DNA of 64,000 nucleotides from Campylobacter sputorum subsp. sputorum (GTDB lineage: Bacteria; Campylobacterota; Campylobacteria; Campylobacterales; Campylobacteraceae). The DNA lies in contig NZ_CP043427.1 of assembly GCF_008245005.1 (NCBI RefSeq), positions 1,550,001 through 1,614,000 on the forward strand, given 5' to 3'. The translations under genes and the position numbers were made by a program. Positions 817 through 61,638 of this stretch are shown piece after piece. How positions within the stretch are numbered: the first letter of the stretch is position 1; each line of letters opens with the position of its first letter. Below the pieces are notes generated by a model. It was not told the origin of the DNA. It did no database searches and saw nothing but the letters and a program-made list of their open reading frames with translations.

Positions 817-833
817 TTTGCCTCCTTAATCTA

Positions 834-1596: not shown

Positions 1597-1606
1597 ATTT
1601 TCTCCT

Positions 1607-6449: not shown

Positions 6450-6452
6450 CTT

Positions 6453-7094: not shown

Positions 7095-7977
7095 AAAAAA
7101 CCTCTTCATAATATCTAGCCATTTTTAAGCCATATTTAACATTTTTTGCTTTGATTTTTTTGTTGTGTATAAAATTATCAATCATAAGCAATATCCAGTT
7201 TTCACTAGCTTTCATTCCCAAAGCCATCCCGCCTGCAATTCTAGGATTTACTTCAATAAAAATAATATCTTTGTTGCTTACAAATAGCTGAAAATTTACA
7301 GCGCCATAAAATTTGATATTTCTTGAAATCTTTATAATCTCTTTGTTAATATCGGCTCTAAACTCGCTGATTCCTTTTGTTGATTTGCCATCTTTTACAT
7401 CAATTCTTTTTCTTGGAATAATATATACCGCTTCGCCACTATTATCAAAGAGACAATCTACCGTATATTCGGCGCCATCTACCTTTTCTTGTGTGATAAA
7501 ATCTGATATCGTATCATCAAAAATTAGCAAATCTTTTGCTCCACGCCCAAATCGTGGCTTTATAATCTCATAGCGATTATAAAGTTTTGTTTTTGGCGTT
7601 TTTATACCGATTTTCTTGAAAAATTGATAGGTTTTGTATTTATCCAAAAATAGCTCAATCGTTTCAAATGGCGATATAATCACATAAATTCCCTTTTCTT
7701 GAAAATATTTTACTCTTTTTGCCCAACCCAAGAGCATTTCATCAAAACTCGGAATCACAATATCTATTTTATGTTCTAATAGCGACTTTTCCACCTTTTG
7801 CCATAAATTTTTATCACCAAATTTTGGAAAAATAATGAAATCGTCACACATTTTTTTTGCCGCATTAAAATCATCAATATCGCTACCACACGCTAAATTT
7901 CCGCTTTCGTGTATGTTTTTTATCATAAAATTTGAACTCAAACTCCCAGAAGCTTCAATCAAAATTTTATACATCAT
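7087..7977 (-). CDS. ATP-grasp family ligase (CarB-like)
   Basis: 296 aa ATP-grasp protein. An N-terminal nucleotide-binding half is followed by the ATP-grasp core with KPRFGRGAKDLL (about residues 137-148), QEKVDGAEYTVDCL and the metal-binding FIEVNPRIAGGM (about 244-255). Such ligases join a carboxylate to an amine or similar nucleophile using ATP. Start and upstream stop overlap (ATGA), as do stop and downstream HAD start. Within a nonulosonic acid cluster it may attach an amino acid or other acid to the sugar amine, possibly one freed by the nearby PIG-L deacetylase. That is inference. Confidence 0.8.
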   Translation of the reverse strand: MMYKILIEASGSLSSNFMIKNIHESGNLACGSDIDDFNAAKKMCDDFIIFPKFGDKNLWQKVEKSLLEHKIDIVIPSFDEMLLGWAKRVKYFQEKGIYVIISPFETIELFLDKYKTYQFFKKIGIKTPKTKLYNRYEIIKPRFGRGAKDLLIFDDTISDFITQEKVDGAEYTVDCLFDNSGEAVYIIPRKRIDVKDGKSTKGISEFRADINKEIIKISRNIKFYGAVNFQLFVSNKDIIFIEVNPRIAGGMALGMKASENWILLMIDNFIHNKKIKAKNVKYGLKMARYYEEVFYD

Positions 7978-8673
7978 TCAACCACCATATAAGCGATATT
8001 TGGATCAAAGTTAAATTTTTTGATTCTTACATTGTTAAAGCTTTTAAAAAACTCAAAACTTGCAATGCTTTCACCTTTCCAAAATTCATTATTTATTTCA
8101 TCAAATGCAATAATACCGCCTTTTACTACACGATTTGCAAAATATTCAAGTGCTGTTTTTGTAGGCTCATAAATATCAAAATCTAAAAATAACAAACTGA
8201 TTAAAAGATGTTCATTATCTTCTAAATATTGCGGTATTGTCTTTGTTGCATCGCCTTTGACCAATTCAATTTTACCTATATGATTTAAAAATCTATTTTC
8301 GTCAAATTCTTTTATACAATCATTTAATTCACTCTGAATTTCATTAAAGGATGAAAATTTGCCAACTTCTAAATTTTCATGATTGACAGATTTTAAATCC
8401 TCTTGTGCAATTGATGGAAATCCCTCAAATGTATCAAACCCTATCACTTTTCTATCCAAGCCTAAAATATCAAGCCCTGCACAAAGTTTAGCCCATGCCA
8501 TTAGCCCCCCCATAATGAACACCACACTCTACAATTGAACCTTTTGCATCCTTTATCATCTTAAAAAGTTCATATCTTGCCAAAAACCTACTCAAATCTT
8601 GCCTACGGACATATTTTTCAAAATTTCTAAGCTTTATCTCTTTATCATAGTCATATTTATCGATTAAATGCAT
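7974..8673 (-). CDS. TylF/MycF-type methyltransferase, phase-variable by G7 tract (OFF)
   Basis: The first 61 codons (from 8673) carry RYELFKMIKDAKGSIVECGVHYGG; the rest (to 7974) carries LMAWAKLCAGL ... VIGFDTFEGFP and LLFLDFDIYEPT. Together they form a macrocin-O-methyltransferase-like (TylF) enzyme of about 230 aa. The two halves are in different frames across a seven-G run at 8505-8511. By direct reading, 6 or 9 G would join them (HYGG(G)LMAWAK), 7 G ends at GANGMG-stop, and 8 G stops at once. The cell is therefore OFF as sequenced. Likely a Mg-dependent sugar O-methyltransferase for the glycan. The stop overlaps the ATP-grasp start. Confidence 0.75.
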
Positions 8674-8693
8674 ATTTTTCCAATCTTTACACT

Positions 8694-9698
8694 CTATAAA
8701 AACTCGATCAAATCATCTTTGTTATAGTTTTTATTTGCTTTTTTACCAACTATTTCATACCAAAACATAGGATTTATACCATTTGCAGGGCGTTTGGTGC
8801 TTAAATTTTGCTCAGTGAAAATTCCACCTTTTTTTATTGCCGCTTTTGCAATTATCGATTTTCTAGCCACTAAAATATTTTTTTGCTCACTTTCGCTTAC
8901 CTTTTTTATGCCATCACCCAAGGCTAATTCGATATTTCTTATAGCTTGTATCATAGCTTTTAGCTCTTTTGGTTCCAAACTTGCACTATGATCTGGGCCT
9001 TTCATTGTTTTATCAAGAGTAAAATGCTTTTCTATGATACTTGCACCCATCGCAACCGCAGCTATTGGAATTTCTATACCCAAAGTGTGATCACTATAAC
9101 CAAATTTTAACCCAAATGCTCTACCTATCGTAACCATAGCCTTTAAATTTACATCACACATTGGTGTGGGATACTCGGTATTTGCATGTAAAATAGTGAT
9201 ATTATCTCTATTTGTTCCATTTTTTACTAAAATATCAATCGCACTTTCTATCTCACCCAAACTGGACATTCCTGTTGATAAAATAATTTTTTTATTTAGC
9301 GATCCAATCGATCTTAAATATGGCAAATTTGTGATTTCCCCGCTTGGAATTTTAAAAATATCCAAGCCTAAATTTGAGAGCAATTGCACACTTTCTACAT
9401 CAAACGGAGTAGATAAAAATATGATTTTTTGCTCATTGCAATATTTTAAAAGCTCAATATGATTATCTTTGCTAAGCTCTAAATGTTTGAGCATATCAAA
9501 TTGACTCTCTTTATCATCGCTGCTTTTTTGCTGATATTTAGCCTTAGAAGCGCTTTTTACAACCAAATTTTCAGCTCTAAATGTTTGAAATTTAATCGCA
9601 TTAGCACCTGAATACACTGCAATATCGACCATTTTTTTAGCTAAATCCAAATCACCATTATGATTCACTCCCGCTTCTGCTATCACAAAAACACCCAT
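8694..9698 (-). CDS. legI: legionaminic acid synthase (NeuB family)
   Basis: 334 aa. It condenses the diacetamido-trideoxymannose made by LegG with phosphoenolpyruvate to give the nine-carbon legionaminic acid. N-terminal TIM-barrel with FVIAEAGVNHNGD, AIKFQTF, STPFD and EKHFTLDKTMKGPDH, then a C-terminal SAF antifreeze-like domain (about residues 275-334, ARKSIIAKAAIKKG and KRPANGINP). MKGPDHSASL is the NeuB/LegI form; PseI has a different loop. One nucleotide separates it from legH. A second, divergent NeuB-family gene lies at 24641-25693. Confidence 0.88.
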   Translation of the reverse strand: MGVFVIAEAGVNHNGDLDLAKKMVDIAVYSGANAIKFQTFRAENLVVKSASKAKYQQKSSDDKESQFDMLKHLELSKDNHIELLKYCNEQKIIFLSTPFDVESVQLLSNLGLDIFKIPSGEITNLPYLRSIGSLNKKIILSTGMSSLGEIESAIDILVKNGTNRDNITILHANTEYPTPMCDVNLKAMVTIGRAFGLKFGYSDHTLGIEIPIAAVAMGASIIEKHFTLDKTMKGPDHSASLEPKELKAMIQAIRNIELALGDGIKKVSESEQKNILVARKSIIAKAAIKKGGIFTEQNLSTKRPANGINPMFWYEIVGKKANKNYNKDDLIEFL

Positions 9699-9699
9699 T

Positions 9700-10338
9700 T
9701 TATCGCCTTTGATAATCGAAATTTATGCTGTTTTTAAGCACCAACCCATCACCTATATCGTTTAACACACTCACACCAGCACCGATAATACAACCTTTGC
9801 CGATTTTAACATACTCTTTTGCAACCGCATTGCTGCCAAAAAAACTATCATCGCCAATCACAACACCACCATTTACGACACTTGCTGTAGATATGTGCGA
9901 AAAATCGCCAATAATTGCGTCATGCTCAATTAACGCTTTTGTATTAATAATGCAGTTTTTACCAACAATGGCACTTGAATTAATCAAAGCATTATGCATA
10001 ACCACACTTCCTTCGCCAATTTTCGCATATTTTGAAACATAAGCAAAAGGCGAAATGATACTTGGTAAATTAAAACCAATTGCTTTTAATTGCTCATAAA
10101 TTCGCTTTCTGGATGCAGATGTTTTAATCTGTCCAAGAGAAATTATTGCATTTTTACAATGTTTAAAAATTTTTGTTAAATCGCTCTGTGTGCCAATTAT
10201 CTCATATCCAAACAAATTTTGACCAACTTTTTCATCAATATCAATAATGCCAAAAATTTCAAATCTCTTCTCACTCTCAACAACATCAATAACACTCCTA
10301 CAATGTCCGCCACCGCCTATCAAAATAATTTTATCCAT
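9700..10338 (-). CDS. legH: UDP/GDP-amino-sugar N-acetyltransferase (LegH/PglD-like hexapeptide)
   Basis: 212 aa, sialic-acid O-acetyltransferase NeuD/PglD-like fold. An N-terminal Rossmann part (ILIGGGGHCRSVIDV) is followed by left-handed beta-helix hexapeptide repeats (AKIGEGSVVMHNA, AIVGKNCIINTKA, HDAIIGDFSHI). The catalytic His is expected in the EHDAIIGDF segment. LegH acetylates the C4 amine installed by LegC. It sits directly between legC and legI with no gap on the legC side, which decides LegH over the related PglD. Confidence 0.85.
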   Translation of the reverse strand: MDKIILIGGGGHCRSVIDVVESEKRFEIFGIIDIDEKVGQNLFGYEIIGTQSDLTKIFKHCKNAIISLGQIKTSASRKRIYEQLKAIGFNLPSIISPFAYVSKYAKIGEGSVVMHNALINSSAIVGKNCIINTKALIEHDAIIGDFSHISTASVVNGGVVIGDDSFFGSNAVAKEYVKIGKGCIIGAGVSVLNDIGDGLVLKNSINFDYQRR

Positions 10339-11493
10339 TTAAATCCTTGCTGAACTTGGTAAATTAGCAACCCTTTGACTTAAAATTTTAGCATTTTTAA
10401 GCTCATCTTGCTGGGAGTGTTTAAACATTTCAAGCTCACTCATAAGTCGCCAAATTCTTCTTGTAAAAACGCCATTTTCATTTGAATATCGCAAAAAACC
10501 GTTCTTAATATTCTCGCTATCAAAACAGATTGCATTTAGCCAAAAATTCGCTTTTGCGTCGCTACTTTCATCAATAAAAGTTATATTTTTAAACTTAGCA
10601 AAAAATTCTTTATAAAGCATCGCTAACTCTCTTTTACTAACTAAAAATTTATCCAAATTTTCAAGCTGTGCTACCAATAAAGCGGCGTTTAAATTGGGTA
10701 ATCTATAATTATAGCCGATTTCATCGTGAATATACTCATAAGGATGTGGAATTTTCGCTGTTGTAGTGAGATGTTTGGCTCTTTTTGCTAATTTTTCATC
10801 ATCACACACAATCGCCCCACCGCCACCACTTGTAATAATTTTATTGCCATTAAAGCTAAAAGTTCCGATTTTTCCAAAGCTTCCTGTATGTTTGTCTTTA
10901 TAATAGCTTCCTAAACTCTCCGCCGCATCTTCAATCAAATCAATATGCCAATATCTGCAAATCTCATCAATCTCATCAACTTTGCACGGAAAACCAAAAG
11001 TATGCATAATCACACAAGCTTTTATAATATTTTTTGTTGTTTTATTGATACATTTTTCGCCTATTATTTCGCAGTTTTTCTCTAAAAATCGCTCCAAAGC
11101 TTTTGGACTTAGAGATAAATTTTGCATATCCACATCAAGAAAAATCATCTTAGTGCCAACATATGAAATCGCATTGCAAGTGGCTACAAAAGTAAGCGGT
11201 TGAGTGATTATCTCATCATTTGGTTTTATATCTAGTAATTTTAGTGCAATATGCAAGGCAGATGTCCCATTTGTCGTGGCTACTGCAAATTTTCTACCGA
11301 CAATATCGGCAAATTTTAGCTCAAATTCATCCACATATTTTCCTACACTGGACACAAAGGTACTATCGATACAATCTAATAAATATTTTTTCTCATTGCC
11401 GATAAATCTGGGCTCATGAAGTGCAATAGTGTTTTTATCGGGATAAAGCGAGCGTATAAAATCCAAAATTTCATCAAACATTGTAAATTTCAC
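10339..11493 (-). CDS. legC: NDP-4-keto-sugar aminotransferase (LegC, DegT/DnrJ/EryC1 family)
   Basis: 384 aa DegT-family PLP enzyme. PLP lysine in SFNGNKIITSGGGGA (about residue 215), EDAAESLGS, and TNGTSALHIAL cofactor contact. It aminates the 4-keto sugar made by LegB, giving the 4-amino-4,6-dideoxy intermediate. The 5' end overlaps legB by 20 nt. The start is uncertain: GTG at 11493 or ATG (MFDEIL) 12 nt later; both keep the fold. Confidence 0.87.
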   Translation of the reverse strand: MKFTMFDEILDFIRSLYPDKNTIALHEPRFIGNEKKYLLDCIDSTFVSSVGKYVDEFELKFADIVGRKFAVATTNGTSALHIALKLLDIKPNDEIITQPLTFVATCNAISYVGTKMIFLDVDMQNLSLSPKALERFLEKNCEIIGEKCINKTTKNIIKACVIMHTFGFPCKVDEIDEICRYWHIDLIEDAAESLGSYYKDKHTGSFGKIGTFSFNGNKIITSGGGGAIVCDDEKLAKRAKHLTTTAKIPHPYEYIHDEIGYNYRLPNLNAALLVAQLENLDKFLVSKRELAMLYKEFFAKFKNITFIDESSDAKANFWLNAICFDSENIKNGFLRYSNENGVFTRRIWRLMSELEMFKHSQQDELKNAKILSQRVANLPSSARI

Positions 11494-12460
11494 TTTTATA
11501 TTTTTTTAAATTTTTCTTATCGCTAAACCAATCAATTGTGATTTTAAGCCCTTTTTCTAAGCTAAATTTGGGCTGAAAATTGCTAAGACGTTTTATTTTT
11601 GAGTTATCGCATTTAAGCCTAAAAACTTCGCTTTTTTTAGGGCGAATTCGCTTTTTATCTTCCAAAATTTCAATATTTGATGAAGTTAATTTCTTAATCA
11701 TCTCAAATGTATCTTTTATACTAATTTCGCTATTTGATCCTATATTTATAACTTCGCCGATGCTATTTTCGCATTTTGCAATCTCCAAAAACCCTTCGCA
11801 GGTGTCAAGAACAAAGTTAAAATCTCTAGTAGGTGTTAGATCACCCATTTTGATCACTTTTTTATTATTTAAAATTTGTATTATGATATTTGGTATTACC
11901 GCTCTTGCAGACTGTCTAGGTCCATAAGTATTAAAAGGTCTAGCAACACTCACAGGAAGATCAAAAGAGTTATAAAAGCTAAGTGCTAACATATCAGCCG
12001 CTATTTTACTCGCACTATATGGACTTTGTGGTTGTAAAGGGTGATTTTCATCAATTGGGACATATTGGGCTGTGCCATAAACTTCACTGGTGCTGGTGTG
12101 AATGAATTTCTCTAAATTTGAGCTTTTTTTAGCAGCTTGAAGCATATTTAAAGTGCCTTGAATATTGGTATCTACATAACTTTGCGATGCTTGATAAGAA
12201 TATGGTATAGCAATTAATGCACCAAGATGAAAGATTGTATCGATATTTTGAAGCAATGTTTCACAAAAAAAGCTATCTCTTAAATCGCCGCTTACAACCT
12301 CCATTTCTCTTAAATTTTTGCAATCTTCAAGCCATCCCCAAAAATTAAAAGAGTTGTATTGGCTTAATGCTTTTACATTATATCCACGCTCAACAAGCAT
12401 TTCACAAAGATGAGAGCCAATAAATCCATCAGCTCCCGTAACTAAAACATTTTTCATCAT
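11474..12460 (-). CDS. legB: NDP-GlcNAc 4,6-dehydratase (LegB, extended SDR)
   Basis: 328 aa extended short-chain dehydrogenase. NAD motif TGADGFIGSHL at the N-terminus, TSTSEVYGTA (catalytic Thr), YSASKIAADML (Tyr and Lys), and SVARPFNTYGPRQSARAVIP for the sugar-nucleotide end. It makes the 4-keto-6-deoxy intermediate that starts the legionaminic route. The start has two adjacent ATG codons. When the upstream radical SAM gene is in its long frame, its stop (12461-12463) abuts this start, which suggests one operon. Confidence 0.88.
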   Translation of the reverse strand: MMKNVLVTGADGFIGSHLCEMLVERGYNVKALSQYNSFNFWGWLEDCKNLREMEVVSGDLRDSFFCETLLQNIDTIFHLGALIAIPYSYQASQSYVDTNIQGTLNMLQAAKKSSNLEKFIHTSTSEVYGTAQYVPIDENHPLQPQSPYSASKIAADMLALSFYNSFDLPVSVARPFNTYGPRQSARAVIPNIIIQILNNKKVIKMGDLTPTRDFNFVLDTCEGFLEIAKCENSIGEVINIGSNSEISIKDTFEMIKKLTSSNIEILEDKKRIRPKKSEVFRLKCDNSKIKRLSNFQPKFSLEKGLKITIDWFSDKKNLKKYKSEIYNV

Positions 12461-13302
12461 CTATCCTTGAAAACTCAAACATCTTTTGCATAGCTCCAAG
12501 CCCCCCCCATATCAAAATTTCCGCTTTTATGAGCGCTTCGAATAAGATTAAATCTATCTGAATTATACAGCTTTAAAAAATCGTTTTCAAGCAAAGAGCC
12601 AAAATTGATCTCATCGAAATAATCTTTACAACAAAGTCCAAGCGAACAATCTGAATTGATATAAATTTCATCGAACGCAATTGTACATTTTCGTAAAATT
12701 TTTGTCGTCTCAACCTTAGTTATAGCCGTAAAACCAAGAGGATAATACCAGATGTGATCGATTTGATCAAAATTTTGGGCAAAAATTTTCCTAAAAGCGC
12801 TTTGTAACTCATCTTGTGAAATTTTATTTAAAACCGAACTTATGATAAGTTTTACATTGTGAAATTTCTCTTTTTTCAATTGTAAAAGTGCTTTGAAATT
12901 CTCTATAACCCTATCAAAATCATCTTTTTTATGAATTAATTTATAATCATTTTGATTAATTGCATTGATGGAAAATTTAATCGAATCAAGCCCCGCTTCG
13001 AGAAGTTTTTGGGCTTTATTTTCTCTGCATAGTGCGCCATTAGTGCTAATATAAACATATGATATTTTATATTTTTGCTTACAAAGTTTGACAATATCCA
13101 ATAAATCCTTATTTAAAAAAACTTCACCCTTTGCCGAAAGCCCTATTTCGCTAACTTCAACATATTTAAGCACATTATCCATAGTTTTTTCAAAATTTTT
13201 CAAGCTTGTAACATTTTTAATCGTGCGTTTATCTCCATTTGAGCAAAAGCTGCACGAATGATTACAAAATGTACAAATATCAAAATTTAGTTTTTTGTGC
13301 AA
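12461..13302 (-). CDS. radical SAM/SPASM-type protein, C-terminus switched by G8 tract
   Basis: The N-terminus has the radical SAM cluster FDICTFCNHSCSFC (CxxxxxC-type spacing with extra Cys), with a [4Fe-4S]-SAM half-barrel. The C-terminal part has CTIAFDEIYI and LGLCCKDYFDEINFG, typical of SPASM auxiliary clusters. A run of eight G at 12501-12508 sets the end. As sequenced the protein ends GGAWSYAKDV at 12475. With nine G it would end GGGLELCKRCLSFQG at 12461, restoring a CxxC pair that SPASM proteins normally have. So the current form may be inactive or altered. The substrate is unknown; it lies between the MeOPN-like block and legB. Confidence 0.7.
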
Positions 13303-14036
13303 TTTATAGCCTTTGTATCAAGATCTCCAACACTATCGACCTCAACCCAACCGCCTTTGACTCGTATGGGCTCAACACAACCAAATTTATCAATAATCAT
13401 CTGAATAAAACTTGTCATATACATATTTTTAAAATCGTTGCCGTCATAGGTTTTATCACGATCTAAACTATCATAAAATTTTATTATCGTTGGCAAAAAA
13501 TCGCCATTTATTTTCATAAGCCCCATATATTGTGCTTGAATTTCATCATAGCTAAGCGGTTTTTTACCAAGTTCTACAATCTTTTCATCCTTGATTTTTA
13601 GCGTCTCAGCGTCGCTTAAAGGATCATTCATTCGCTGTTTCCATAAATCTCTCCAGGCTAAATCCACCATAACACCAAATTTATTGCTAAATTTCAAAAC
13701 CTCTTGCAAAATTTTCTCACTATAAACAATATCCGCATAGCTAATCACAATATCGCCTTTTAAAAACTCTCTTGCGCAAAATAGCGTATAAACCATATTT
13801 GTCTTAGCAAAATCGGTATTTTCATAAAATTTCACATCTTTATGTTTTAAAAAATCTTTAAGTATATCAAATTTATACCCACCAACTACGGCAATTTGCT
13901 CAAATTTATCATTTGCTACATCTAAAATTTGAGATATAATCTCCTTATTTTGATATTTAACCATACATTTTGGCACATCATTTGTCAAAGGTCGCAAACG
14001 CTTCCCCTTACCTGCTGCTAAAATAATAAGTTTCAC
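13287..14036 (-). CDS. cytidylyltransferase, Cj1416-like (CTP:phosphoglutamine cytidylyltransferase)
   Basis: 249 aa nucleotidyltransferase with ILAAGKGKRLRPLTNDVPKCMV and a GGWVEVDSVGDL C-terminus, related to LicC-type enzymes. The GTG start at 14036 has AAGGAG 6 nt upstream. In C. jejuni, Cj1416 joins CTP and L-glutamine phosphate to give CDP-L-glutamine during O-methyl phosphoramidate synthesis. Assignment here rests on the company it keeps: an amidotransferase, a PEP-synthase-like kinase and a CysC-like kinase in the same relative order. Alone, a phosphocholine cytidylyltransferase would be equally possible. Confidence 0.7.
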   Translation of the reverse strand: MKLIILAAGKGKRLRPLTNDVPKCMVKYQNKEIISQILDVANDKFEQIAVVGGYKFDILKDFLKHKDVKFYENTDFAKTNMVYTLFCAREFLKGDIVISYADIVYSEKILQEVLKFSNKFGVMVDLAWRDLWKQRMNDPLSDAETLKIKDEKIVELGKKPLSYDEIQAQYMGLMKINGDFLPTIIKFYDSLDRDKTYDGNDFKNMYMTSFIQMIIDKFGCVEPIRVKGGWVEVDSVGDLDTKAINCTKN

Positions 14037-14279
14037 TAAAACTCCTTGCAGTAAGTAAAATTCTCATCATATTTTACCTTGCTTTTTGACAATCTTACCG
14101 CTTTTTAACAATAAATTCTCTTAAACTTAGGCACAATTCATCACGCAAAGGCAAATTTATCCATTATTACAAACTTTTTTACATAAAAATATTTAAAAAA
14201 AAGAGTATAAAAATTCACAATACAACAATTGCTTTGTGAGCGAACGCAGCAAATAAGCTTAAAAATGAAAAATTTTTAA
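14037..14279 (-). other. 243-nt non-coding gap in the MeOPN-like block
   Basis: No gene is visible. Close to the upstream gene, on the minus strand, is the AAGGAG ribosome site of the cytidylyltransferase. The part at about 14218-14250 (ttgct ... gagcgaacgc ... agcaa) is less AT-rich than its surroundings and can form a weak hairpin. It is the largest gap in an otherwise overlapping gene string, so a processing site, terminator or lost gene is possible. Confidence 0.35.
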
Positions 14280-14900
14280 CTAAAAAAAACTTTTAATAAG
14301 CAAATTTTGAGCTTTACTTGGAGGATTTTCTCTCTCGCTATGCCACATAATGCCTAAAATTTTATGCTCTTTATGCTCAATTGCCCTAATAATATTATCG
14401 CTTTTAGCACTTAACATAAGCTCATCGGACAAAGTATCGATAAAAAAATTGGCATATGAATTTACGCTTTCAATCTTACTAAGCTCATCAAAATATTTGC
14501 TATTTGGAGAAACTTCGAGCTTATGTCTGATATTAACCTGATTTGAAATTTCTTTGAAAGTTGAGCCAAAAAACTCTGCTATCACCTGCATACCACGGCA
14601 CACACCAAGTAAAGGAATTTCACGCTTTATACAAAATTCTATCAACTTTTTTTCAAAATCATCTCTCTTTTTTGAAAGCTCATCACCGCTTTGACTAAAA
14701 AGATCATTTCCGCCACTCAATATTACGCCTTGAAATTGCAAACTTTCATAAATTTTCTCTATATCAAACTCACACATCAAAACAATAGGAATACAATTAA
14801 TTTCATTAAACAAAACAGCCCAATTAATATCTAAACATTCTCTAATTTCGTAATAATTGGTATTTTTATATAAGCGTTGTGTGATAGCAATCTTTTTCAA
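14280..14900 (-). CDS. class I glutamine amidotransferase-like hydrolase, Cj1417-like
   Basis: 206 aa. Nucleophile elbow GVCRGMQ (Cys), catalytic His and Glu in MWHSERENP near the C-terminus, and GGNDL for the oxyanion region. It resembles gamma-glutamyl hydrolases of the PuuD type. C. jejuni Cj1417 hydrolyses the gamma-glutamyl-CDP intermediate to release glutamate and cytidine diphosphoramidate. The 4-nt overlap with the Cj1418-like gene, and the cytidylyltransferase next in line, support that role over GABA metabolism. Confidence 0.75.
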   Translation of the reverse strand: MKKIAITQRLYKNTNYYEIRECLDINWAVLFNEINCIPIVLMCEFDIEKIYESLQFQGVILSGGNDLFSQSGDELSKKRDDFEKKLIEFCIKREIPLLGVCRGMQVIAEFFGSTFKEISNQVNIRHKLEVSPNSKYFDELSKIESVNSYANFFIDTLSDELMLSAKSDNIIRAIEHKEHKILGIMWHSERENPPSKAQNLLIKSFF

Positions 14901-17215
14901 GATATAACCTTTATTTTTTTAGCTCCTGCGTCAATTTGAACACTATTTGCTTTTGCAATTTTATCAAAAAGCGCTTCTCCGCATCCAATGACCGCTACAA
15001 TACCAAGTTCCGCACATCGTATAGCCATATGAGAATTTGCACCACCCCAACAAGTTACAAGAGCTAAAATATTTTTGGAAAATAAAAAATCATACCCAGG
15101 ATCTGCTGATTCAACGCAGACAATTTTATTTTCAAAATCACCGCTTTGAATTGTAGAAATTTTACCTAAAACACTTTTTTGAGTGATGAAATTAGGTTCA
15201 TTTTTTTCTAGAAAAAAGTTGTAAATATCATCTTTTTGCGCAATTAAAGCAGGAAGTTTTAAAGCTTTGCTAAGATTGTAAGATTTTTTATTTTTTTGTA
15301 TATTATTAAGAAAAATTTCTCTTAAATCGAGCTCATCAAGTGTGCCATAAAGTCGCTTAATCACACTAAAATCAAGAAAAGCTAAATCGTTTTTATCGAT
15401 TTCAAAACGAGCACCAAGCTCTTCAATAAATTTCAACATCTGGCTCAAACTTTTAGTAAATATAAATTTAGCATACTCTCTACCCTCAATTGCTAATTTG
15501 ATAAAATTAATAAACTCATCAAAACTAGAATTGATTCCATACTCATTCAAAAGCGTAGAAATTTGCTCTTTTTGTTTTTTACTAAATTCAAACTCAATTT
15601 CCTTTGGTGGCTTTGAAATACCCGAAAAATAACTATCATAAGCCTCATCATATCGATTTGAACAGATATCATAAGTTCCAGGACGCAAATGCCCATAAAT
15701 TTTCAAAAATTCATCTTTATTTAACTTCGAAATATCTACGCTAAGCTGTTTTGAAATGGTATTTAAAGAATTTAAAAAAGCATTAAGCTCATCTTTATTC
15801 AAAACATTTTTATAAACAAGAGAATTCAAAAACTGCACCGATATAAACGCTGCTCTTGCAATGCCTGCAAATGGCAATGTTCCATATCGTTTGCAATCTT
15901 CACAAAGCCAATAAATTTTATCAATAATGGAAATATCGGAATTTATCACGCTTTCAAATTTATCTTTTAAAATTTCAATCTTTTGTAAATCTTTTTCAAA
16001 AACTCCATTTTTTTGCAAAATAAAATTGGTAAGCTCTAAAAGCGAAAATTCGATTCTTTTAATCTCTTGCTCGTTAAATCCATACTTTAAAAGCTCTTTT
16101 AAGTCATCTTCTATACCAAAATAGTAGCATGAATATATGATTTCAAACTCGATTTTATCGTGATAAATTTTGTTCTCTTTTAATTTTTTTATGTAAAAAT
16201 TTACCAATTTTTTTGCTATTTTTTCATTTAAATGCTTTGGTAAAAATGAGTTAAAACTCACTCTCACATCAATGTAACAAAGTCCCATAAATGAAACCAT
16301 AAGCGGATAACTGCGCAAATTTCTATATCCATAATTATCCCTTTGATATGCCCAAATCTCATCGGTTATAAGCTCTTTATAAAGGCTAGTTGAGAGTGCT
16401 TTTGGCTTGATTCCTATAATCTCGGCAGGATTCCAATCCGGCATAACCCCAAAAATACTCTCATCGCCCATTAAATTGGGATATGGTGCGTTTAATTTCT
16501 CAAATTTCTTATAAATTTTAAACAAAGCATCGGAAATATTTATATTGCTTAAATTTTCCTTTGATTTTTGAACAATCTCTCGCACCTGTAAAATGTAAAT
16601 TTCATCACCGCAAAAAGCAAACTCGATATCCAAAGAAGCTTTATCAAATAATTTTTCAATCTCTTTTACAGCATTTATCAGCTTTTTTAACGACAAATCT
16701 TTTATATTTTCGTAATTTTTATAGCAGATAAATGTTTTATCATCTTTGGCATTTCCGCTAGTTATAAGGTCGGTTTTACCGCTTTCATCGTAGTTGATAA
16801 TGTAATATGGTGCTAAATTATCAATATCAGCACTAAAAATTACACCACATTTTGAAACATTTTTCAACATCGGTTGAACAAAGATTTCATCACTCTCTTC
16901 GCAATTTTTATATGAATTTGCGACATCTTTTATCGCTTTTTTCAAATCGGCTTTATTATTTGAGACATTTCCAACACTTAGAAATTCCCCCGCTTTTGAA
17001 CTAACAGCGTTATCTTCACTACTTGCGCTTGAACGAACAATCAAATTTTCATCAAATTTGGATAAAATTTCATTTAAAATTTTATCCTCATTTTTTACAA
17101 AATCATCAACTAAAAATCTAACCACGGGTAAAACAGTTGCGTTTTTTAGTTTTCCACTCAACGCTAACAATGTTTGTGCTTTGTTTTTTAACTTCAATTC
17201 ACACCTTTTTAGCAC
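14897..17215 (-). CDS. PEP-synthase-like L-glutamine kinase, Cj1418-like
   Basis: 772 aa, PEP-utiliser family. N-terminal ATP-grasp-like ATP-binding part (LIVRSSASSEDNAVSSKAGEF, Arg/Ser loop; LDIEFAF), a long middle region, and a C-terminal phosphohistidine domain with WGGANSHMAIRCAELGIVAV. The catalytic His is in SHMAIR, about residue 730. In C. jejuni, Cj1418 phosphorylates the amide of L-glutamine, the first committed step of phosphoramidate synthesis. There is no PEP/pyruvate TIM barrel, which argues against true PEP synthase. Its 5' end overlaps the methyltransferase gene by 17 nt. Confidence 0.75.
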   Translation of the reverse strand: MLKRCELKLKNKAQTLLALSGKLKNATVLPVVRFLVDDFVKNEDKILNEILSKFDENLIVRSSASSEDNAVSSKAGEFLSVGNVSNNKADLKKAIKDVANSYKNCEESDEIFVQPMLKNVSKCGVIFSADIDNLAPYYIINYDESGKTDLITSGNAKDDKTFICYKNYENIKDLSLKKLINAVKEIEKLFDKASLDIEFAFCGDEIYILQVREIVQKSKENLSNINISDALFKIYKKFEKLNAPYPNLMGDESIFGVMPDWNPAEIIGIKPKALSTSLYKELITDEIWAYQRDNYGYRNLRSYPLMVSFMGLCYIDVRVSFNSFLPKHLNEKIAKKLVNFYIKKLKENKIYHDKIEFEIIYSCYYFGIEDDLKELLKYGFNEQEIKRIEFSLLELTNFILQKNGVFEKDLQKIEILKDKFESVINSDISIIDKIYWLCEDCKRYGTLPFAGIARAAFISVQFLNSLVYKNVLNKDELNAFLNSLNTISKQLSVDISKLNKDEFLKIYGHLRPGTYDICSNRYDEAYDSYFSGISKPPKEIEFEFSKKQKEQISTLLNEYGINSSFDEFINFIKLAIEGREYAKFIFTKSLSQMLKFIEELGARFEIDKNDLAFLDFSVIKRLYGTLDELDLREIFLNNIQKNKKSYNLSKALKLPALIAQKDDIYNFFLEKNEPNFITQKSVLGKISTIQSGDFENKIVCVESADPGYDFLFSKNILALVTCWGGANSHMAIRCAELGIVAVIGCGEALFDKIAKANSVQIDAGAKKIKVIS

Positions 17216-18746
17216 TCCAAGCTCTTGAAGTATATTTTATATCAAATTCTCTCGGTAGCTCTTTTTTAATCTCATTTGAAATTTTATCAAATAACGCTCT
17301 ACCTTCATCAGTATCCAAATCCCAATATGGATTTTTCACACTTTTCCACGCTAAAATATAATTATCAACACTTTGATGAAAATAAAAATCTTGCTCTATA
17401 TAGCAAATTTCATCAAAAAGATCTCTGTTTTTCTCAATGATAGCTCTTTGATCATCTCGCCTTACGCCTTTTTCGTAGTTAGGCACAAATTTCATAATGA
17501 TATTTTGTGCGCTTTGTTGAATTTCATCATTTAGATCCCGGTGGTTCCACATACAACTAAAAACCCCATCTTTTCTTAAAATTCTATGAGTTTCTTTAAG
17601 AGCTTCATCTCTATCCATCACATTAAAACTGCTTCCAAAGGTCACCCAGTCAAAAGAATCGCTATCAAGCGTAGTATTAACGCCATTTGCATTAATCCAA
17701 CTGATATTTTCTTTACTTGTGCGTTCAATGCCAATCTCTCTCATCGCATCATTTGGCTCGACCGCATTTACTCTTAGCCCTCTTTCAAGCAACATTATGC
17801 TTAAATTTCCAGTTCCTGCACCAATATCGGCAACATCTTCTAAATTTCGACATTTTCTAACATACTCGCACAACATATCGATTAAGAGCGGCGAATAGTT
17901 TGGTCGGTATGAGTAGAATTGCGCATGCTTTGTATAGTCCCAGATTTTTTGGTAGGACCCCCCCCGTGTATTTTGTTTTGCATTGTTATCCTTTCTTGCT
18001 ATATAAGCTTTTATTAAGTATTTAGCCTCAATTATATTAAATTTAGCTATTTTTGATTCTATCATTTTTAAAATTTCGCCCCATTTTTTGCCGGCTTGGG
18101 CTTGTATATCATTAACAGACTTCCAAATTCCCATATAACGATCTTTGCTCATCACTTCAACATAAGGGATTTCCATATAAAAACAATCTGTAAAATCTCC
18201 CGTGCTTTCTAAAATTTCATAATAATTTTTTACATTTTGCGTTCCGCTTGAAACTCTGTTTAAATTTGGTATCATAGCTTTTATTTCTTCTTCGATGTCG
18301 TAAAATATTGAGTCTTTTTCAATATGTCTAGGATTCCAAATCGCTGCAAATAGTGCATCTTTTTTGAGAATTCTTGCAAATTCAGGCAAAGACAAATTTG
18401 GATCTGTCCAGTGAAAACTGCTCGCCATTATCGCAATATCATAATAATTGCTCTGTAAGCCTGTTTTTTCGCCACTTCCATTGTGCCATTTTATATTTTT
18501 ACAATCTTTGCAATAGTTTTTACCAAAATCACGCATATTATCATTTGGCTCAACTGCATCAACGCTAATATCTTGTCTTAAATTTGCTAAAATTTTGGTT
18601 AGTTTTCCAGTTCCTGCACCTATTTCAGCAACTTTGAAATCATTTTTAAGTCCTGCACATTTTAGTAAATTTTCAATCAAAACTTTGCTATATGCCGGTC
18701 TATTGTCGTAAAATTTAGCAACATCGCTAAAATCACCTTGTTTCAT
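17199..18746 (-). CDS. tandem SAM methyltransferase, two domains joined through a G8 tract (Cj1419/Cj1420-like)
   Basis: 515 aa with two related class I methyltransferase domains. Domain 1 (about 1-250) has KFYDNRPAYS and VAEIGAGTGKLTKIL. Domain 2 (about 270-515) has QFYSYRPNYS and VADIGAGTGNLSIML. Between them is an eight-G run at 17958-17965 encoding RGG. With nine G, domain 1 gains a short tail and domain 2 is lost; with seven or ten it also stops soon. In C. jejuni two adjacent methyltransferases, Cj1419 and Cj1420, belong to the MeOPN cluster and one is phase-variable. Here the tract sets fusion versus single domain. They probably methylate the phosphoramidate or a sugar. Confidence 0.7.
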   Translation of the reverse strand: MKQGDFSDVAKFYDNRPAYSKVLIENLLKCAGLKNDFKVAEIGAGTGKLTKILANLRQDISVDAVEPNDNMRDFGKNYCKDCKNIKWHNGSGEKTGLQSNYYDIAIMASSFHWTDPNLSLPEFARILKKDALFAAIWNPRHIEKDSIFYDIEEEIKAMIPNLNRVSSGTQNVKNYYEILESTGDFTDCFYMEIPYVEVMSKDRYMGIWKSVNDIQAQAGKKWGEILKMIESKIAKFNIIEAKYLIKAYIARKDNNAKQNTRGGSYQKIWDYTKHAQFYSYRPNYSPLLIDMLCEYVRKCRNLEDVADIGAGTGNLSIMLLERGLRVNAVEPNDAMREIGIERTSKENISWINANGVNTTLDSDSFDWVTFGSSFNVMDRDEALKETHRILRKDGVFSCMWNHRDLNDEIQQSAQNIIMKFVPNYEKGVRRDDQRAIIEKNRDLFDEICYIEQDFYFHQSVDNYILAWKSVKNPYWDLDTDEGRALFDKISNEIKKELPREFDIKYTSRAWSAKKV

Positions 18747-18771
18747 CTCAAATCCTTTTTATATAAATTTT

Positions 18772-20022
18772 TTATAAAAATCTATCTTTATTAATTTTTT
18801 TATCAGCAAAAAATCGCTCCATTTCAAAAGTTTTTCGCCAAATGTAAAAGCTGTGCAAATCTCTGTAAAATTCTTTCGTTCGGTTAATTTTTTTTCGCAT
18901 AAAAATTAACCTTTTACTAAGCCAAAATGGAAGTTTTTTGTAAAATTTGTTCTGTATTTTGTTGGGATCAAGATTTTTCATTTCCAAATCTTCAAACCAA
19001 TAAAATGGCCTTAAAATCGGACGAATAAAAAGATAAGAAAAATATATTCTTGCATAAATTTTCTCAAATCCTTTTAACGGCTCGATTTCATATCCAAAAG
19101 CTTTTGCTGTGCTGTAATTGCACAATTTTATCAGTAATAAATCTTTGTATGATAAATTTTGTGATCTTTTTTGTCTGGATTTATCTGCGTCAAATCCGCT
19201 AAAAGTGCTTTTATCAATTGTATTTCCTTGCCAAATTTTGCCAAGAAAAGTTGATTGTATTAAATTTTTATCAAATTTTATATCTAAAAAATCAGCAATC
19301 TTTTTCATCGCTTCATCTTGCAATGAGTGAAGTGATTCCAAATATACAAATAGCGTATTTTCTGCTCCTATTTTCATATAAATATCATAAACATATTTAG
19401 AGTTTATATTAAACGATATGAGCGTTTGAAAAATGCCAAATTTATACACAGAAAATTTTCCGCCTCTGGTCATTTTTTTCATATATGAAAGCATGGAATA
19501 ACTGGCTTCCATAAAATCTCTTGTGGATACTAAAAGTTTCAAATTCGGATAATTTATGAAAAAAAACTTGCTATATTTCTCATCCTTTTTGCTTATTGGA
19601 AAGCTGTGAATATGCACAAGAATATATTTAATCTTGCTAATATCACTATAACCGATTGTTTTTGCATAAGCAAGATGTAAAAGTTCGAAAAGTTCTTTTT
19701 TGGAACTAATTTTTTTATCACACAAATTATCGCACAAGGATAAAAAATTATTTCTAAACTCGCTTTTACTAATTTGTGTTAATTTAAAATTTGCTCTATC
19801 TTTGGAAAAATGGGGAGGCTTCGCATATCCGTTATGAAAGGCGTTTGGATTTTTGTGAATAAATTCATCCACAATCTCATCATTTTTGTTATTTAGATTT
19901 AAGAAAAAATCAAGCTCGCAATAATATGCACAAAAAAATATGATCTCAGGATGATGATCTAAAAGCGATTGTAAGAAAAATGATCCGGTTCTACTTTGTA
20001 GTGTAAGTAATATTATGTTCAA
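18772..20022 (-). CDS. sulfotransferase-fold protein; candidate phosphoramidoyl or sulfo transferase
   Basis: 416 aa. The N-terminal 5'-phosphosulfate-like loop LQSRTGSFFLQSLLDHHPEI and the 3'-phosphate-binding loop LLVSTRDFMEASYSML match sulfotransferase families. A basic C-terminal 100 residues is Lys/Arg/Phe rich. Sulfotransferases use a 3'-phospho nucleotide donor. The CysC-like kinase of the MeOPN route makes a 3'-phospho-cytidine donor, so such a fold could transfer phosphoramidate instead of sulfate. The position corresponds to the C. jejuni transferases Cj1421/Cj1422. True sulfation remains an open alternative. Confidence 0.65.
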   Translation of the reverse strand: MNIILLTLQSRTGSFFLQSLLDHHPEIIFFCAYYCELDFFLNLNNKNDEIVDEFIHKNPNAFHNGYAKPPHFSKDRANFKLTQISKSEFRNNFLSLCDNLCDKKISSKKELFELLHLAYAKTIGYSDISKIKYILVHIHSFPISKKDEKYSKFFFINYPNLKLLVSTRDFMEASYSMLSYMKKMTRGGKFSVYKFGIFQTLISFNINSKYVYDIYMKIGAENTLFVYLESLHSLQDEAMKKIADFLDIKFDKNLIQSTFLGKIWQGNTIDKSTFSGFDADKSRQKRSQNLSYKDLLLIKLCNYSTAKAFGYEIEPLKGFEKIYARIYFSYLFIRPILRPFYWFEDLEMKNLDPNKIQNKFYKKLPFWLSKRLIFMRKKINRTKEFYRDLHSFYIWRKTFEMERFFADKKINKDRFL

Positions 20023-20023
20023 A

Positions 20024-21124
20024 TTAAATCCTTTTAATTCCTGTTTGTTTTACAAATTGATTATAATAAACCCAGCTTTGCATAATATCTGGAATTTCCT
20101 TTCTCAAAGGCTCAATCTGGCTAATTGAAATCTCTTTTAAGCGATTTGTAAAATCTAAATTTTGAAAAATAATCTCTAAAATTTCATTCTCTTTTAACAC
20201 TAATTTTTTGGCTTCTTGCTCCATTTCATAAGTTTTATCGATGAAAAAATCAATTCTATCATTGATCAACTGCATTGCTTGCTGATTATTTACTATTTCT
20301 TGAACGCTAAAATCGCCCTCTTTTAGCACCACAAAAAGTTTCAAATCGCTACGCTTTGGATGAGTGAAATTTGATATAATGATTTTATCTTTATAAACTG
20401 AATCCAAAAGACAATGATATTTTGTGTATCTATAAAATGACATTCTAGTTCCTATTAAAATTTGAAAACTTTTGCCATTTTCTAGACTAAGTGTAGGATA
20501 TGAAGGCATTGATCTTGCCAAAAGATCATTAAATCTTACATCATAATCGCTATTTTGCCTTAATTTCCCGCTATCTAACATAGAAATAACATTTTGCATT
20601 GTTAAAAAAGCATTTTCACCCACAATATCGGCAGTTTGAATGTAAATTTTTTTAAGAGTTGCATTATTTACTTGATTAAATGTAGATAAGAAATTTAGTG
20701 CTTTTAGCGGATTTTCAAATAAAATATATCGAATTGAATCGCCTGTTTTTGGCTGTGTTAAGTCTTTTCTAAAAACATTTCTTACCACATAATCATTAAT
20801 AAGCTCATTAACTCCCGATTTTATCAAGCTTATAGGATCTCGAATCAAAATAAAATGCAAAACTTTTGTTTGTAACTCTTGCAATCTTTTTACCGTATAA
20901 TCATCATAAACTCTATCTAAAAAAATGCCCCAAGTTTTTTTATCATTGAAATATGGTGAAAAATCTTTTTTGTAATCATTCAAACAATCTACCCCCTCCC
21001 TATCGCTTCCAATCAAATCCCAATACATTGGCGAAAGCTCTGATATTTGCAAAAAATATCTAAAAGCTTGTATTCCTGATCCATGCACTCCAGAGACGAT
21101 ATATCCATAATCTTGCGGTAACAT
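20024..21124 (-). CDS. divergent sulfotransferase-like transferase
   Basis: 366 aa. A degenerate P-loop-like start (VSGVHGSGIQAFRYFL) and a later LHFILIRDPISLIKSGVNE, the 3'-phosphate-binding pattern RDP..S of sulfotransferases. Spacing of one nucleotide to the next gene shows co-transcription. It may be the second of two transferases that place the same group on different sugars or positions. It also resembles Campylobacter/Helicobacter proteins of unknown function that I recall as DUF2972, so confidence in a specific role is modest. Confidence 0.6.
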   Translation of the reverse strand: MLPQDYGYIVSGVHGSGIQAFRYFLQISELSPMYWDLIGSDREGVDCLNDYKKDFSPYFNDKKTWGIFLDRVYDDYTVKRLQELQTKVLHFILIRDPISLIKSGVNELINDYVVRNVFRKDLTQPKTGDSIRYILFENPLKALNFLSTFNQVNNATLKKIYIQTADIVGENAFLTMQNVISMLDSGKLRQNSDYDVRFNDLLARSMPSYPTLSLENGKSFQILIGTRMSFYRYTKYHCLLDSVYKDKIIISNFTHPKRSDLKLFVVLKEGDFSVQEIVNNQQAMQLINDRIDFFIDKTYEMEQEAKKLVLKENEILEIIFQNLDFTNRLKEISISQIEPLRKEIPDIMQSWVYYNQFVKQTGIKRI

Positions 21125-21133
21125 CTCAAACCT

Positions 21134-21652
21134 TTATCCGTTTTTTTGTGATAAAAAATATAAAATTTTATCTATTTTTTTATCTAAATTTGCCTGTTTA
21201 GAATTATCTATAACCAAATCAGCCTTTGGCTCGTCAAATTCAATATCCACACCTACAACTTCTTTTATTTTTCCATTTATTGCGCCACTATAAAGCCCTT
21301 TTTGATCACGCCTTACAAGCTCATCAAAATCACATTTGATGTAAATTTCAACCAAATTTGGAATCTGAGCTCTATTAAAATCATAATTTTCTTTAAATAG
21401 CGATATTCCAGAACAAATCACATTAATACCTTGGCTTGATAAAATTTTGCACAAAATTGCCTTTTTTTTAGCCACCTTTATTCTGGAATTTTTATCATAT
21501 TTTTGTTCTTTGCTTAAAATTTCTCTAAATTCATCCCCATCAATATAGACCAAATTTGGAATTTTAGGCTTTAACCTATCATACAAAGCTCTACAAATCG
21601 TGCTTTTACCGCTTCCTGCAAAACCATTTAGCCAAATAACAAATGGATTCAA
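21134..21652 (-). CDS. CysC-like nucleotide 3'-kinase (APS kinase family; Cj1415-like)
   Basis: P-loop kinase with WLNGFAGSGKST, YIDGDEFRE, SRIKVAKKKA and IKCDFDELVRRDQKGLY, the standard layout of adenylylsulfate kinase. I prefer the TTG start at 21652 (MNPFVIWLNG) with AAGG eight nt upstream. It gives 172 aa, close to family length; the open frame extends to 21715 with a low-complexity lead. In C. jejuni Cj1415 has this fold but phosphorylates cytidine diphosphoramidate. No cysD/cysN genes are visible here, while Cj1416-1418-like genes are, favouring the phosphoramidate role. Confidence 0.75.
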   Translation of the reverse strand: MNPFVIWLNGFAGSGKSTICRALYDRLKPKIPNLVYIDGDEFREILSKEQKYDKNSRIKVAKKKAILCKILSSQGINVICSGISLFKENYDFNRAQIPNLVEIYIKCDFDELVRRDQKGLYSGAINGKIKEVVGVDIEFDEPKADLVIDNSKQANLDKKIDKILYFLSQKNG

Positions 21653-21768
21653 TGCTATACCTTGAAAAATTTTTGCATTATTATAGCAAATAAAATTAAT
21701 TTTTGAAATTATCAAAATTTACATTAATTAAAATAGATTATAATTAAAAAAAGAAAAAAAGAAAATTA

Positions 21769-24561: not shown

Positions 24562-24640
24562 ATTTAAACTATTAAAACAGCTTTTTGCAACAAATCTAAT
24601 CTCTTATAAATTATTTTAACTGCTTAAAACAAAAACAACA

Positions 24641-61166: not shown

Positions 61167-61241
61167 GCGGGAATAGCTCAGTGGTAGAGCGCGACCTTGC
61201 CATGGTCGATGTCGCGAGTTCGACTCTCGTTTCCCGCTCCA
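61167..61241 (+). tRNA. tRNA-Gly (GCC)
   Basis: Acceptor GCGGGAA/TTCCCGC, T loop GTTCGACTC, anticodon GCC in CTTGCCATG, encoded CCA end. Standard cloverleaf by eye. Confidence 0.93.
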
Positions 61242-61268
61242 GTTTTGTGATTGTTTTGTTGTTATAGT

Positions 61269-61356: not shown

Positions 61357-61374
61357 TTTTTATAAGTTATGCAT

Positions 61375-61448: not shown

Positions 61449-61469
61449 TATCAAATAAAAAGGAGATAA

Positions 61470-61625: not shown

Positions 61626-61638
61626 TCTACACTTATAT

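Follow-up and report, generated by a model that had tools for sequence, protein, structure and literature searches.

A candidate phosphoramidate cassette joined to legionaminic acid genes in Campylobacter sputorum, with a possible role in decorating a surface glycan other than capsule

We analysed a stretch of 64,000 nucleotides (the window; G000:C1:1550001-1614000) from the genome of Campylobacter sputorum subsp. sputorum (the host, G000), a single contig of 1.75 Mb. In this window, a cassette of seven genes like that for the capsular O-methyl phosphoramidate (MeOPN) of C. jejuni (Cj1415-Cj1422) shares a strand with an operon for legionaminic acid (Leg). On balance, we lean towards the reading that this module places a phosphoramidate, probably O-methylated and phase-variable, on a Leg-containing surface glycan, possibly that of flagellin. 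Since the cassette and the Leg genes stand in one block that is missing from a sister genome, the data suggest that the tag decorates a surface sugar other than capsule, perhaps a flagellar one. An earlier sequence-only reading of the window had proposed phosphoramidate on a nonulosonate-containing glycan. The pathway families, the lack of a KpsC/KpsS match in the genome, the joint presence or absence of both gene sets, and their recurrence in other genera and another phylum speak for this proposal; its acceptor, methylation and carrier we infer.

Results

All seven cassette genes named in the sequence-only reading were found where it had placed them, on the minus strand, with the start of the CysC open reading frame (ORF) possibly reaching out to 21715 (Table 1). 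The gene order had been described as close to that of Cj1415-Cj1422, and compared with C. jejuni GP013 (L034) CysC alone is displaced, standing at the opposite end. The transcription order is CysC, DUF2972, ST, MT-MT, GlnK, GAT, NTP in the window and DUF2972, MT, MT, GlnK, GAT, NTP, CysC in GP013 (names as in Table 1). Read from 21715 to about 1600, the minus-strand ORFs overlap or nearly abut, first those of the complete cassette (13287-21715) and then those of the Leg operon, with gaps of 243 bp between GAT and NTP and of 168 bp between legI and a TylF-type methyltransferase gene. The cassette had also been thought to run into legB-C-H-I-G-F. The shared strand bears this out, but the leg genes, at 2896-12460, fall beyond the range assigned to the block, and a radical S-adenosylmethionine (SAM)/SPASM gene separates the cassette from legB. 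After this gene come legB-C-H-I and later legG, ptmE and legF, with the TylF-type methyltransferase, ATP-grasp, HAD, PIG-L and ptmE genes interspersed among legI, legG and legF. The same strand continues beyond the left edge of the window with a GNAT gene (L009:19196-19759) and ptmA. A scan of 8000-22600 for promoters and terminators gave numbers about as expected by chance.

Table 1. Features of the module, with positions in the window unless a locus is given.
Feature	Position	Strand	Basis
24.8-kb stretch missing from sister genome, window part	1..21715	-	starts 3081 bases left of window; takes in ptmA
ptmA	L009:18384-19190	-	NF050062 352.4 bits, cut-off 350
legF-like CMP-nonulosonate cytidylyltransferase	2896..3654	-	best model PseF 152.8 bits, below cut-off 205.7
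ptmE-like nucleotidyltransferase	3605..4639	-	nucleotidyltransferase and KpsF/CBS-type models, all below cut-off
PIG-L deacetylase, Leg operon	4636..5292	-	PF02585; 61% identical gene in G313 Leg operon
legG, 2-epimerase (NeuC family)	5289..6449	-	TIGR03568 364.7 bits, cut-off 235.9
legI, nonulosonate synthase (NeuB family)	8694..9698	-	TIGR03569 503.3 bits, cut-off 399.7; PseI model below cut-off
legH, acetyltransferase (NeuD/PglB/VioB family)	9700..10338	-	TIGR03570 187.6 bits, cut-off 160.8
legC, aminotransferase	10339..11493	-	TIGR04181 536 bits, cut-off 420
legB, NAD-dependent 4,6-dehydratase	11474..12460	-	TIGR04180 491.3 bits, cut-off 475
Radical SAM/SPASM protein	12475..13302	-	between cassette and legB; G8 tract toward 3' end
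NTP, putative CTP:phosphoglutamine cytidylyltransferase (Cj1416 type)	13287..14036	-	49-51% identity to cassette counterparts, five relatives
GAT, putative gamma-glutamyl-CDP-amidate hydrolase (Cj1417 type)	14280..14900	-	class I amidotransferase family; motifs GVCRG, HSERE
GlnK, putative L-glutamine kinase (Cj1418 type)	14897..17215	-	NF004508 1004.6 bits, cut-off 501; motif GGANSHMA
MT-MT, fused tandem SAM methyltransferase	17199..18746	-	halves correspond to two methyltransferases of C. jejuni-type cassettes
G8 tract at methyltransferase hinge, codon 260	17958..17965	-	between the two halves
ST, second transferase, sulfotransferase family; proposed phosphoramidate transferase	18772..20022	-	Pfam Sulfotransfer_3 30.6 bits, cut-off 27
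DUF2972, putative phosphoramidate transferase (Cj1421/Cj1422 type)	20024..21124	-	lacks N-terminal ~237 residues of family model
CysC, putative CysC-like cytidine-diphosphoramidate kinase (Cj1415 type)	21134..21715	-	P-loop GFAGSGKST; NF004041 235.6 bits, cut-off 127

The cassette proteins were compared with family models, with solved structures and with the neighbourhoods of five relatives, in which five of the seven window genes matched cassette genes. GlnK was 49-52% identical to its counterparts in all five; the model that it passes, NF004508, is named hypothetical protein, and the assignment to the Cj1418 type comes from gene neighbourhoods. Its GGANSHMA motif presumably has a phosphohistidine role. 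CysC scored above NF004041, itself named adenylyl-sulfate kinase, and with 115.5 bits below the cut-off of 138.7 of TIGR00455, the model for adenosine 5'-phosphosulfate (APS) kinase; it shared 53-55% identity with GlnK-adjacent CysC genes in three of the five relatives. GAT, in whose motif we take the Cys to be catalytic, showed 33-46% identity in all five and 32-54% when genes at the matching place in further relatives were included. NTP, which is without a match to a dedicated model, reached 35-55% in further loci, and its closest solved structure was CTP:phosphocholine cytidylyltransferase (1jyk, 43.7 bits). Among solved structures, CysC matched APS kinases (up to 88.4 bits), GAT matched an anthranilate synthase subunit (36.7 bits) and PuuD (25.5 bits), and GlnK gave one weak match to phosphoenolpyruvate (PEP) synthase (24.3 bits). 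All seven ORFs are open, and the expected motifs were present in the five cassette proteins checked for them. That these genes might be unrelated APS kinase, PuuD and PEP synthase from other pathways was examined and rejected, as the best family models and the gene neighbourhoods favour the phosphoramidate families. The same evidence supports the assignment of the block as a putative phosphoramidate pathway.

For the Leg operon, the LegB, LegC, LegH, LegI and LegG models all gave scores above cut-off, although TIGR03570, TIGR03569 and TIGR03568 also cover other nonulosonates. Both G313 and Sulfurospirillum sp. MAG-6 have, close to their Leg genes, a gene 51% identical to the ptmE-like one.

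Both gene sets are missing together from G001, the closest relative searched and a member of the same genus. This genome gave no GlnK match and no LegI-type NeuB, its sole NeuB being 35% like the window legI. A stretch of 24.8 kb (G000:C1:1546920-1571715) is replaced there by 4.9 kb (G001:C1:1522314-1527226, L129) between flanking genes that share 67-100% protein identity on both sides. These are, on the left, PseF (86%), two TarF/TarL-like genes (72% and 67%) and a PhnW-like aminotransferase (81%), and, on the right, GNAT (83%), ACP (84%), SDR (95%), AMP ligase (88%), NeuB-like (92%) and PseG-like (96%) genes. The replacement holds three ORFs without counterpart in the host region, whose products are a partial Capsule_synth-family protein, one with no family assignment and a fusion of FrhB with polysaccharide pyruvyl transferase. 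From this comparison of two genomes, the simplest account would be that the whole block was gained or lost in a single event.

We then considered the carrier. Capsule genes, for which the sequence-only reading had advised looking, were represented by KpsC/KpsS (PF05159), which gave no match in the host genome (KpsM, T, E and D were not searched), while the control search was positive in E. coli and B. subtilis; we therefore did not class the window cassette as a capsule cassette. PF05159 was found in 17 of 36 Campylobacterales genomes with GlnK (15 strong, E < 1e-20; two weak), and it lay less than 4 kb from GlnK in six, all of genus g2 (G002, G013, G337 (C. jejuni GP013, L034), G403, G432 and G444). 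A scan of the module and its flanks, covering ORFs of about 100 aa and more, turned up neither flippase nor polymerase nor ABC exporter families, and glycosyltransferase families above cut-off were limited to two CDP-glycerol-type transferases in the left flank. Elsewhere in the genome are two strong Flagellin_N matches (95 and 187 kb), two weaker ones (683 and 709 kb) and one Maf (195 kb). Given the lack of a KpsC/KpsS match and of a flippase, polymerase or ABC exporter, together with the presence of flagellins and Maf, flagellin would be the likeliest carrier, although within the favoured reading we regard the chances for and against it as balanced.

Lipooligosaccharide or lipopolysaccharide (LOS/LPS) is the chief alternative. 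In this account, the phosphoramidate would go to LOS/LPS or another polysaccharide, the Leg genes would serve that or another glycan, and the two sets would be neighbours merely through a variable sugar island. Phosphoramidate on LPS is known from Xanthomonas campestris and Shewanella, where passages of the sources describe it as lacking the methyl group (PMC3907429; PMC3210612), and in C. jejuni 12567 MeOPN is described on the capsule and Leg precursors for flagella, i.e. separately (PMC6003734, in part). In addition, the host genome has a match to Wzy_C, an O-antigen ligase/polymerase family, at 905562, the left flank holds the two CDP-glycerol-type transferases, and in 15 of the 19 GlnK genomes without a PF05159 match no NeuB stands closer than 15 kb to GlnK on its contig (although some contigs may be broken there). 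Against this, the Leg genes and the cassette are jointly absent from G001, form one strand run and co-occur again in several lineages, and we consider the LOS/LPS account rather unlikely. The favoured reading of a Leg-containing glycan rests further on this recurrence.

A scan of the named collection for glutamine kinase confirmed at least 543 relatives, and the locus analyses used the best 80 of these, which span many phyla (with Lachnospiraceae, Acidobacteriota, Pseudomonadota, Bacteroidota, Patescibacteria and others among them). Phosphoramidate chemistry thus looks to extend beyond Campylobacter, judged from gene content. Within the order, 398 Campylobacterales genomes were sampled, and 35 of the 36 genomes with GlnK also had NeuB. 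NeuB and GlnK shared a contig and were no more than 15 kb apart in five of the 36 (G000, G313, G443, G449 and G242), against 1.1 under random placement (P 0.006); with the host excluded, the counts were 2/35 at 10 kb (P 0.16), 4/35 at 15 kb (1.1 expected, P 0.024) and 5/35 at 20 kb (P 0.016), in statistics that correct neither for common descent nor for the overall tendency of sugar genes to cluster. The limits of 15 kb and 3.7 kb were set after the data were seen, two of three NeuB matches in G397 were taken as one split gene, and distances from GlnK to NeuB and to KpsC/S were read from match positions, eight of them being computed. None of the five genomes had a strong PF05159 match; G443 had weak ones at 2.92 Mb.

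Several of these loci resemble that of the host in detail. The G313 locus comprises Maf, a dehydratase, legC (63%), legH (55%), legI (65%), a TylF gene, legG (30%), PIG-L (61%), ptmE (51%) and legF (39%), with a convergent cassette of NTP, GAT, GlnK (57%), MT and CysC. In Sulfurospirillum sp. MAG-6, legC (65%), legH (55%), legI (68%), legG (33%), ptmE (51%) and legF (41%) share one strand with ST (28%), CysC, GlnK (55%), GAT and NTP, further ORFs standing in between. In another phylum, Acetatifactor (Lachnospiraceae) has legC (34%), legH (44%), legI (57%), legG (30%), PIG-L, legB (59%) and a radical SAM gene, and continues on one strand with an ST-family protein, GlnK (44%), MT, GAT, NTP and CysC. 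A further Lachnospiraceae locus (L062) carries legI, legG and legF on the opposite strand, and L027, from a Campylobacterales metagenome-assembled genome, has a NeuB-type gene in its GlnK locus. The likeness is lower in G242 (legC 62%, legH 59%, NeuB just 37% like the nearest host NeuB) and in G443 and G449 (NeuB-type genes of 35-45%). The radical SAM/SPASM gene of Acetatifactor (L082:7315-8328), likewise beside legB and the cassette, is 24% identical to that of the window.

In a quick maximum-likelihood tree of GlnK with 89 rows, the host protein, on a long terminal branch, grouped with Sulfuricurvum (L030, L025), Sulfurospirillum (L067), Arcobacteraceae (L026), L027, G313 and G242 (Shimodaira-Hasegawa-like approximate likelihood ratio test, SH-aLRT, 90; not a starred branch), separately from a C. 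jejuni/Helicobacter clade (support 99). Some relatives in the host group keep nonulosonate genes nearby, one of them with a Maf flagellin glycosyltransferase, and host legI was slightly closer to such lineages (66-69%) than to genus g2 (57-65%), the NeuB search across named loci having covered 50 of the 80. The tree placement and the legI similarity make it unlikely that the host cassette is a C. jejuni capsule block that has been displaced.

For both transferases of the cassette, structure prediction points with moderate confidence to sulfotransferase folds. ST had no NCBIfam match and no counterpart in the neighbourhoods of the five relatives; the DUF2972 protein passes the Pfam DUF2972 cut-off and matched one gene there, at 24%. 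The two families are joined by a weak profile link, and in both a conserved R(D) follows a strand, as in sulfotransferases that use 3'-phosphoadenosine 5'-phosphosulfate (PAPS); we take the R-D to be the 3'-phosphate site. Elsewhere the sulfotransferase fold reads PAPS, a 3'-phosphonucleotide donor, and the predicted folds would thus fit with 3'-phospho-CDP-amidate as donor. The VIA-align comparisons re-examine Foldseek's own matches, so other families may go unseen there. In 19 of the 80 loci, across phyla, GlnK has an ST-family gene nearby on its own strand, in a count that dropped matches weaker than E 1e-5 (ST in L064, L042 and, on the other strand, L096; DUF2972 in L096); with these counted, one L064 ORF would match both families. 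The ST-family transferase of Acetatifactor (L082:8332-9978) stands between legB with its radical SAM gene and GlnK, and its residues 21-109 weakly match the NeuD/PglB acetyltransferase model (32.6 bits, cut-off 160.8).

A different role for CysC and ST would be a true sulfation pair (APS to PAPS to sulfotransfer) beside a separate phosphoramidate pathway. The host genome has an ATP sulfurylase match above family cut-off (G000:C1:920922-921545, L131), so CysC and ST could produce and use PAPS; both the profile and the predicted fold of ST are those of a sulfotransferase, and the solved relatives of CysC are the APS kinases mentioned above. Yet CysC clears NF004041 and not TIGR00455 (the name of the former notwithstanding), close relatives of CysC stand beside GlnK in many loci, and the ST family is found near GlnK in the 19 loci just given, which makes sulfation improbable in our view.

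Candidate switches were found in the module. The halves of MT-MT are 35% alike to each other and 58-67% identical to their counterparts in all five relatives, some of which are split into two ORFs; the other methyltransferase ORFs compared encode 152-291 aa, with one exception of 428 aa that is closest to the N half. At the hinge, other lengths of the G8 tract would stop the frame after 287-296 residues. Tracts of at least eight G number four in the window, all inside the module on the minus strand (570-577, 1410-1425, 12501-12508 and 17958-17965), with lengths of 8 to 16 bases; overlapping 8-mer G matches amount to 12, against 0.08 expected. Two more such tracts lie in the left flank (L009:14320 and L009:15194), and none was found in window 21716-64000 or in stretch L010 of the same genome. 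In two ORFs, 834-1433 and 2-816, the poly-G tract puts the sequence out of frame with the part upstream of it. The tracts probably make the glycan product phase-variable, as read from one genome and thus one tract state, and the tandem methyltransferase would probably make the phosphoramidate O-methylated.

The frames also bear on whether the cassette might be silent or decaying cargo from which no phosphoramidate is produced. Besides the two out-of-frame ORFs at its left end, passages of PMC3907429 report that a MeOPN signal in nuclear magnetic resonance was missing from four of the 13 Campylobacter strains that carry cj1416-1418 orthologues, C. sputorum RM3237 being one of the four. The seven cassette genes are nevertheless open, with motifs intact in the five checked, and the same source describes tracts of this type as switching in Campylobacter and the MeOPN genes of C. 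jejuni as phase-variable. Here, in the stretches examined, such tracts occur solely in the glycan region, and we regard a silent cassette as very improbable.

Discussion

From the gene families, operon layout, joint presence or absence and recurrence seen in these genomes, we infer the chemistry in the host, the methylation, the switching, the acceptor and the carrier as follows. A single module would build two activated units and then join them. The cassette would convert L-glutamine, ATP and CTP into 3'-phospho-CDP-phosphoramidate, by steps whose order we presume: GlnK would phosphorylate the glutamine amide, NTP would form the CDP adduct, GAT would free CDP-phosphoramidate and glutamate, and CysC would phosphorylate the 3' OH. 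The tandem methyltransferase probably donates the O-methyl group. The Leg genes with ptmA and ptmE would yield a CMP-legionaminic acid derivative, and the two sulfotransferase-fold enzymes would move the phosphoramidate onto hydroxyls of legionaminic acid or of its carrier glycan.

Apart from the ATP sulfurylase gene and the strains without MeOPN signal, several points weigh against this proposal. The host Maf and flagellins lie outside the locus at 1547-1572 kb, unlike in a flagellin glycosylation island that has these genes inside. The best NCBIfam match of GAT, NF045546, reached 177.7 bits with a cut-off of 250 (next best 55.7), and the DUF2972 protein covers model positions 238-590 of 596 in NF058596, 'O-methyl phosphoramidate transferase', at 88.4 bits with a cut-off of 600. 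The fold assignments are moderate, the ST model having a pLDDT of 67 and a best structural match with a TM-score of 0.43 by query, and the DUF2972 model a single Foldseek match below 0.001 with a TM-score of 0.34. Neither transferase family was found in 46 of the 80 GlnK loci, so other transferases must exist. A NeuB-family BLAST match occurred in just three of the 80 (L027, L062 and L082), with flanks of up to 10 kb, many ending early at contig ends; the nonulosonate linkage is thus a minority arrangement, the cassette usually standing beside other sugars. As to the methyl step, knockouts of Cj1419 and Cj1420 in C. jejuni showed no apparent change, according to a part of PMC11800397.

The broader form of the proposal, in which sulfotransferase-fold enzymes of more than one phylum place a phase-variable phosphorus-nitrogen (P-N) group on legionaminic acid or its flagellin glycan, outside any capsule, we put forward only tentatively and would not yet bet on. 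If it were true, there would be a sialic-acid-like sugar that bears a P-N modification, and a phosphoramidate glycan linked to protein. Phosphoramidate and nonulosonate on one glycan were not found in the open-licence literature, as judged mostly by titles and the starts of abstracts. A botulinum paper naming both terms was rejected as a prior description, as in the parts available MeOPN occurs just in its reference list.

Neighbouring genes

The Leg operon contains further enzymes (1607-2899 and 6453-8525), namely a glutamate-semialdehyde-type aminotransferase (NF004856, above cut-off), a HAD protein, an ATP-grasp protein (PF15632) and a TylF-type methyltransferase, which hint at a further decorated Leg derivative. 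The left flank (L009:9677-18251) encodes PseF (above cut-off), two TarF/TarL-like transferases, a PhnW-like aminotransferase and a nucleotidyltransferase, possibly for a further phosphodiester or aminoalkyl modification. One 443-aa protein there (L009:16920-18251) had no match in Pfam (E 0.001), NCBIfam (E 1e-10) or solved structures (E 1). To the right of the cassette (21769-26640) is a second nonulosonate-type set, also kept in G001, with GNAT, ACP, SDR and AMP ligase genes on the plus strand and NeuB-like and PseG-like genes, both below model cut-offs, on the minus strand. The ACP-SDR-AMP ligase trio stands directly ahead of CysC in Helicobacter sp. 11S02596-1 (L055:1492-3858; SDR 63%). Four consecutive tRNA genes (Gly, Leu, Cys, Ser) lie at window 61167-61726.

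Comparison with known systems

The window cassette resembles the MeOPN capsule cassette of C. jejuni in its enzyme families, its near-identical order, a DUF2972-type transferase and poly-G tracts. It differs in that the host is without a KpsC/S match, has the Leg genes joined on and a GlnK of a different clade, adds a sulfotransferase-family transferase, and has its methyltransferases fused via a poly-G hinge. In C. jejuni, Cj1415-1418 are described as producing CDP-phosphoramidate 3'-phosphate and Cj1421/1422 as required for two MeOPN sites (passages of PMC11800397 and PMC3907429). According to parts of PMC9561416 and PMC3907429, MeOPN on the Campylobacter capsule is used by phages as a receptor and has a bearing on resistance to serum; a passage of the former terms the glutamine kinase C. 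jejuni-specific, and one of PMC6429109 says that the MeOPN group has been identified in Campylobacter alone.

PAPS sulfotransferases (4gbm, tyrosylprotein sulfotransferases, heparan sulfate 3-O-sulfotransferases) share the predicted fold of both window transferases, which unlike them are encoded among phosphoramidate genes and have 3'-phospho-CDP-amidate as their proposed donor. If these transferases are indeed sulfotransferase-type readers of a PAPS-like donor, there would be a simple reason for the CysC-like 3'-phosphorylation of CDP-phosphoramidate.

The Leg locus of Campylobacter flagellin corresponds to the host locus in ptmA, a ptmE-like gene, legB, C, H, I, G and a legF-like gene. Unlike it, the host locus has a phosphoramidate cassette and extra TylF methyltransferase, ATP-grasp, HAD, PIG-L and radical SAM genes, with flagellins and Maf located elsewhere. 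Closest in make-up are Sulfurospirillum sp. MAG-6 (L067/L109) and G313, in which legC/H/I/G, ptmE and a legF-type gene occur with GlnK, GAT, NTP and CysC in about 25 kb. Both differ from the host in having no legB-type match beside legC (in G313 a Polysacc_synt_2 dehydratase stands there); G313 further has Maf inside the locus and its cassette convergent to the Leg genes, and Sulfurospirillum L067 has no methyltransferase match and ST as its sole transferase. Set against these known systems, the new element would be that a genome without KpsC/S has a phosphoramidate pathway linked to nonulosonate genes; should this pairing be functional, sugars with P-N bonds would be a general bacterial surface modification.

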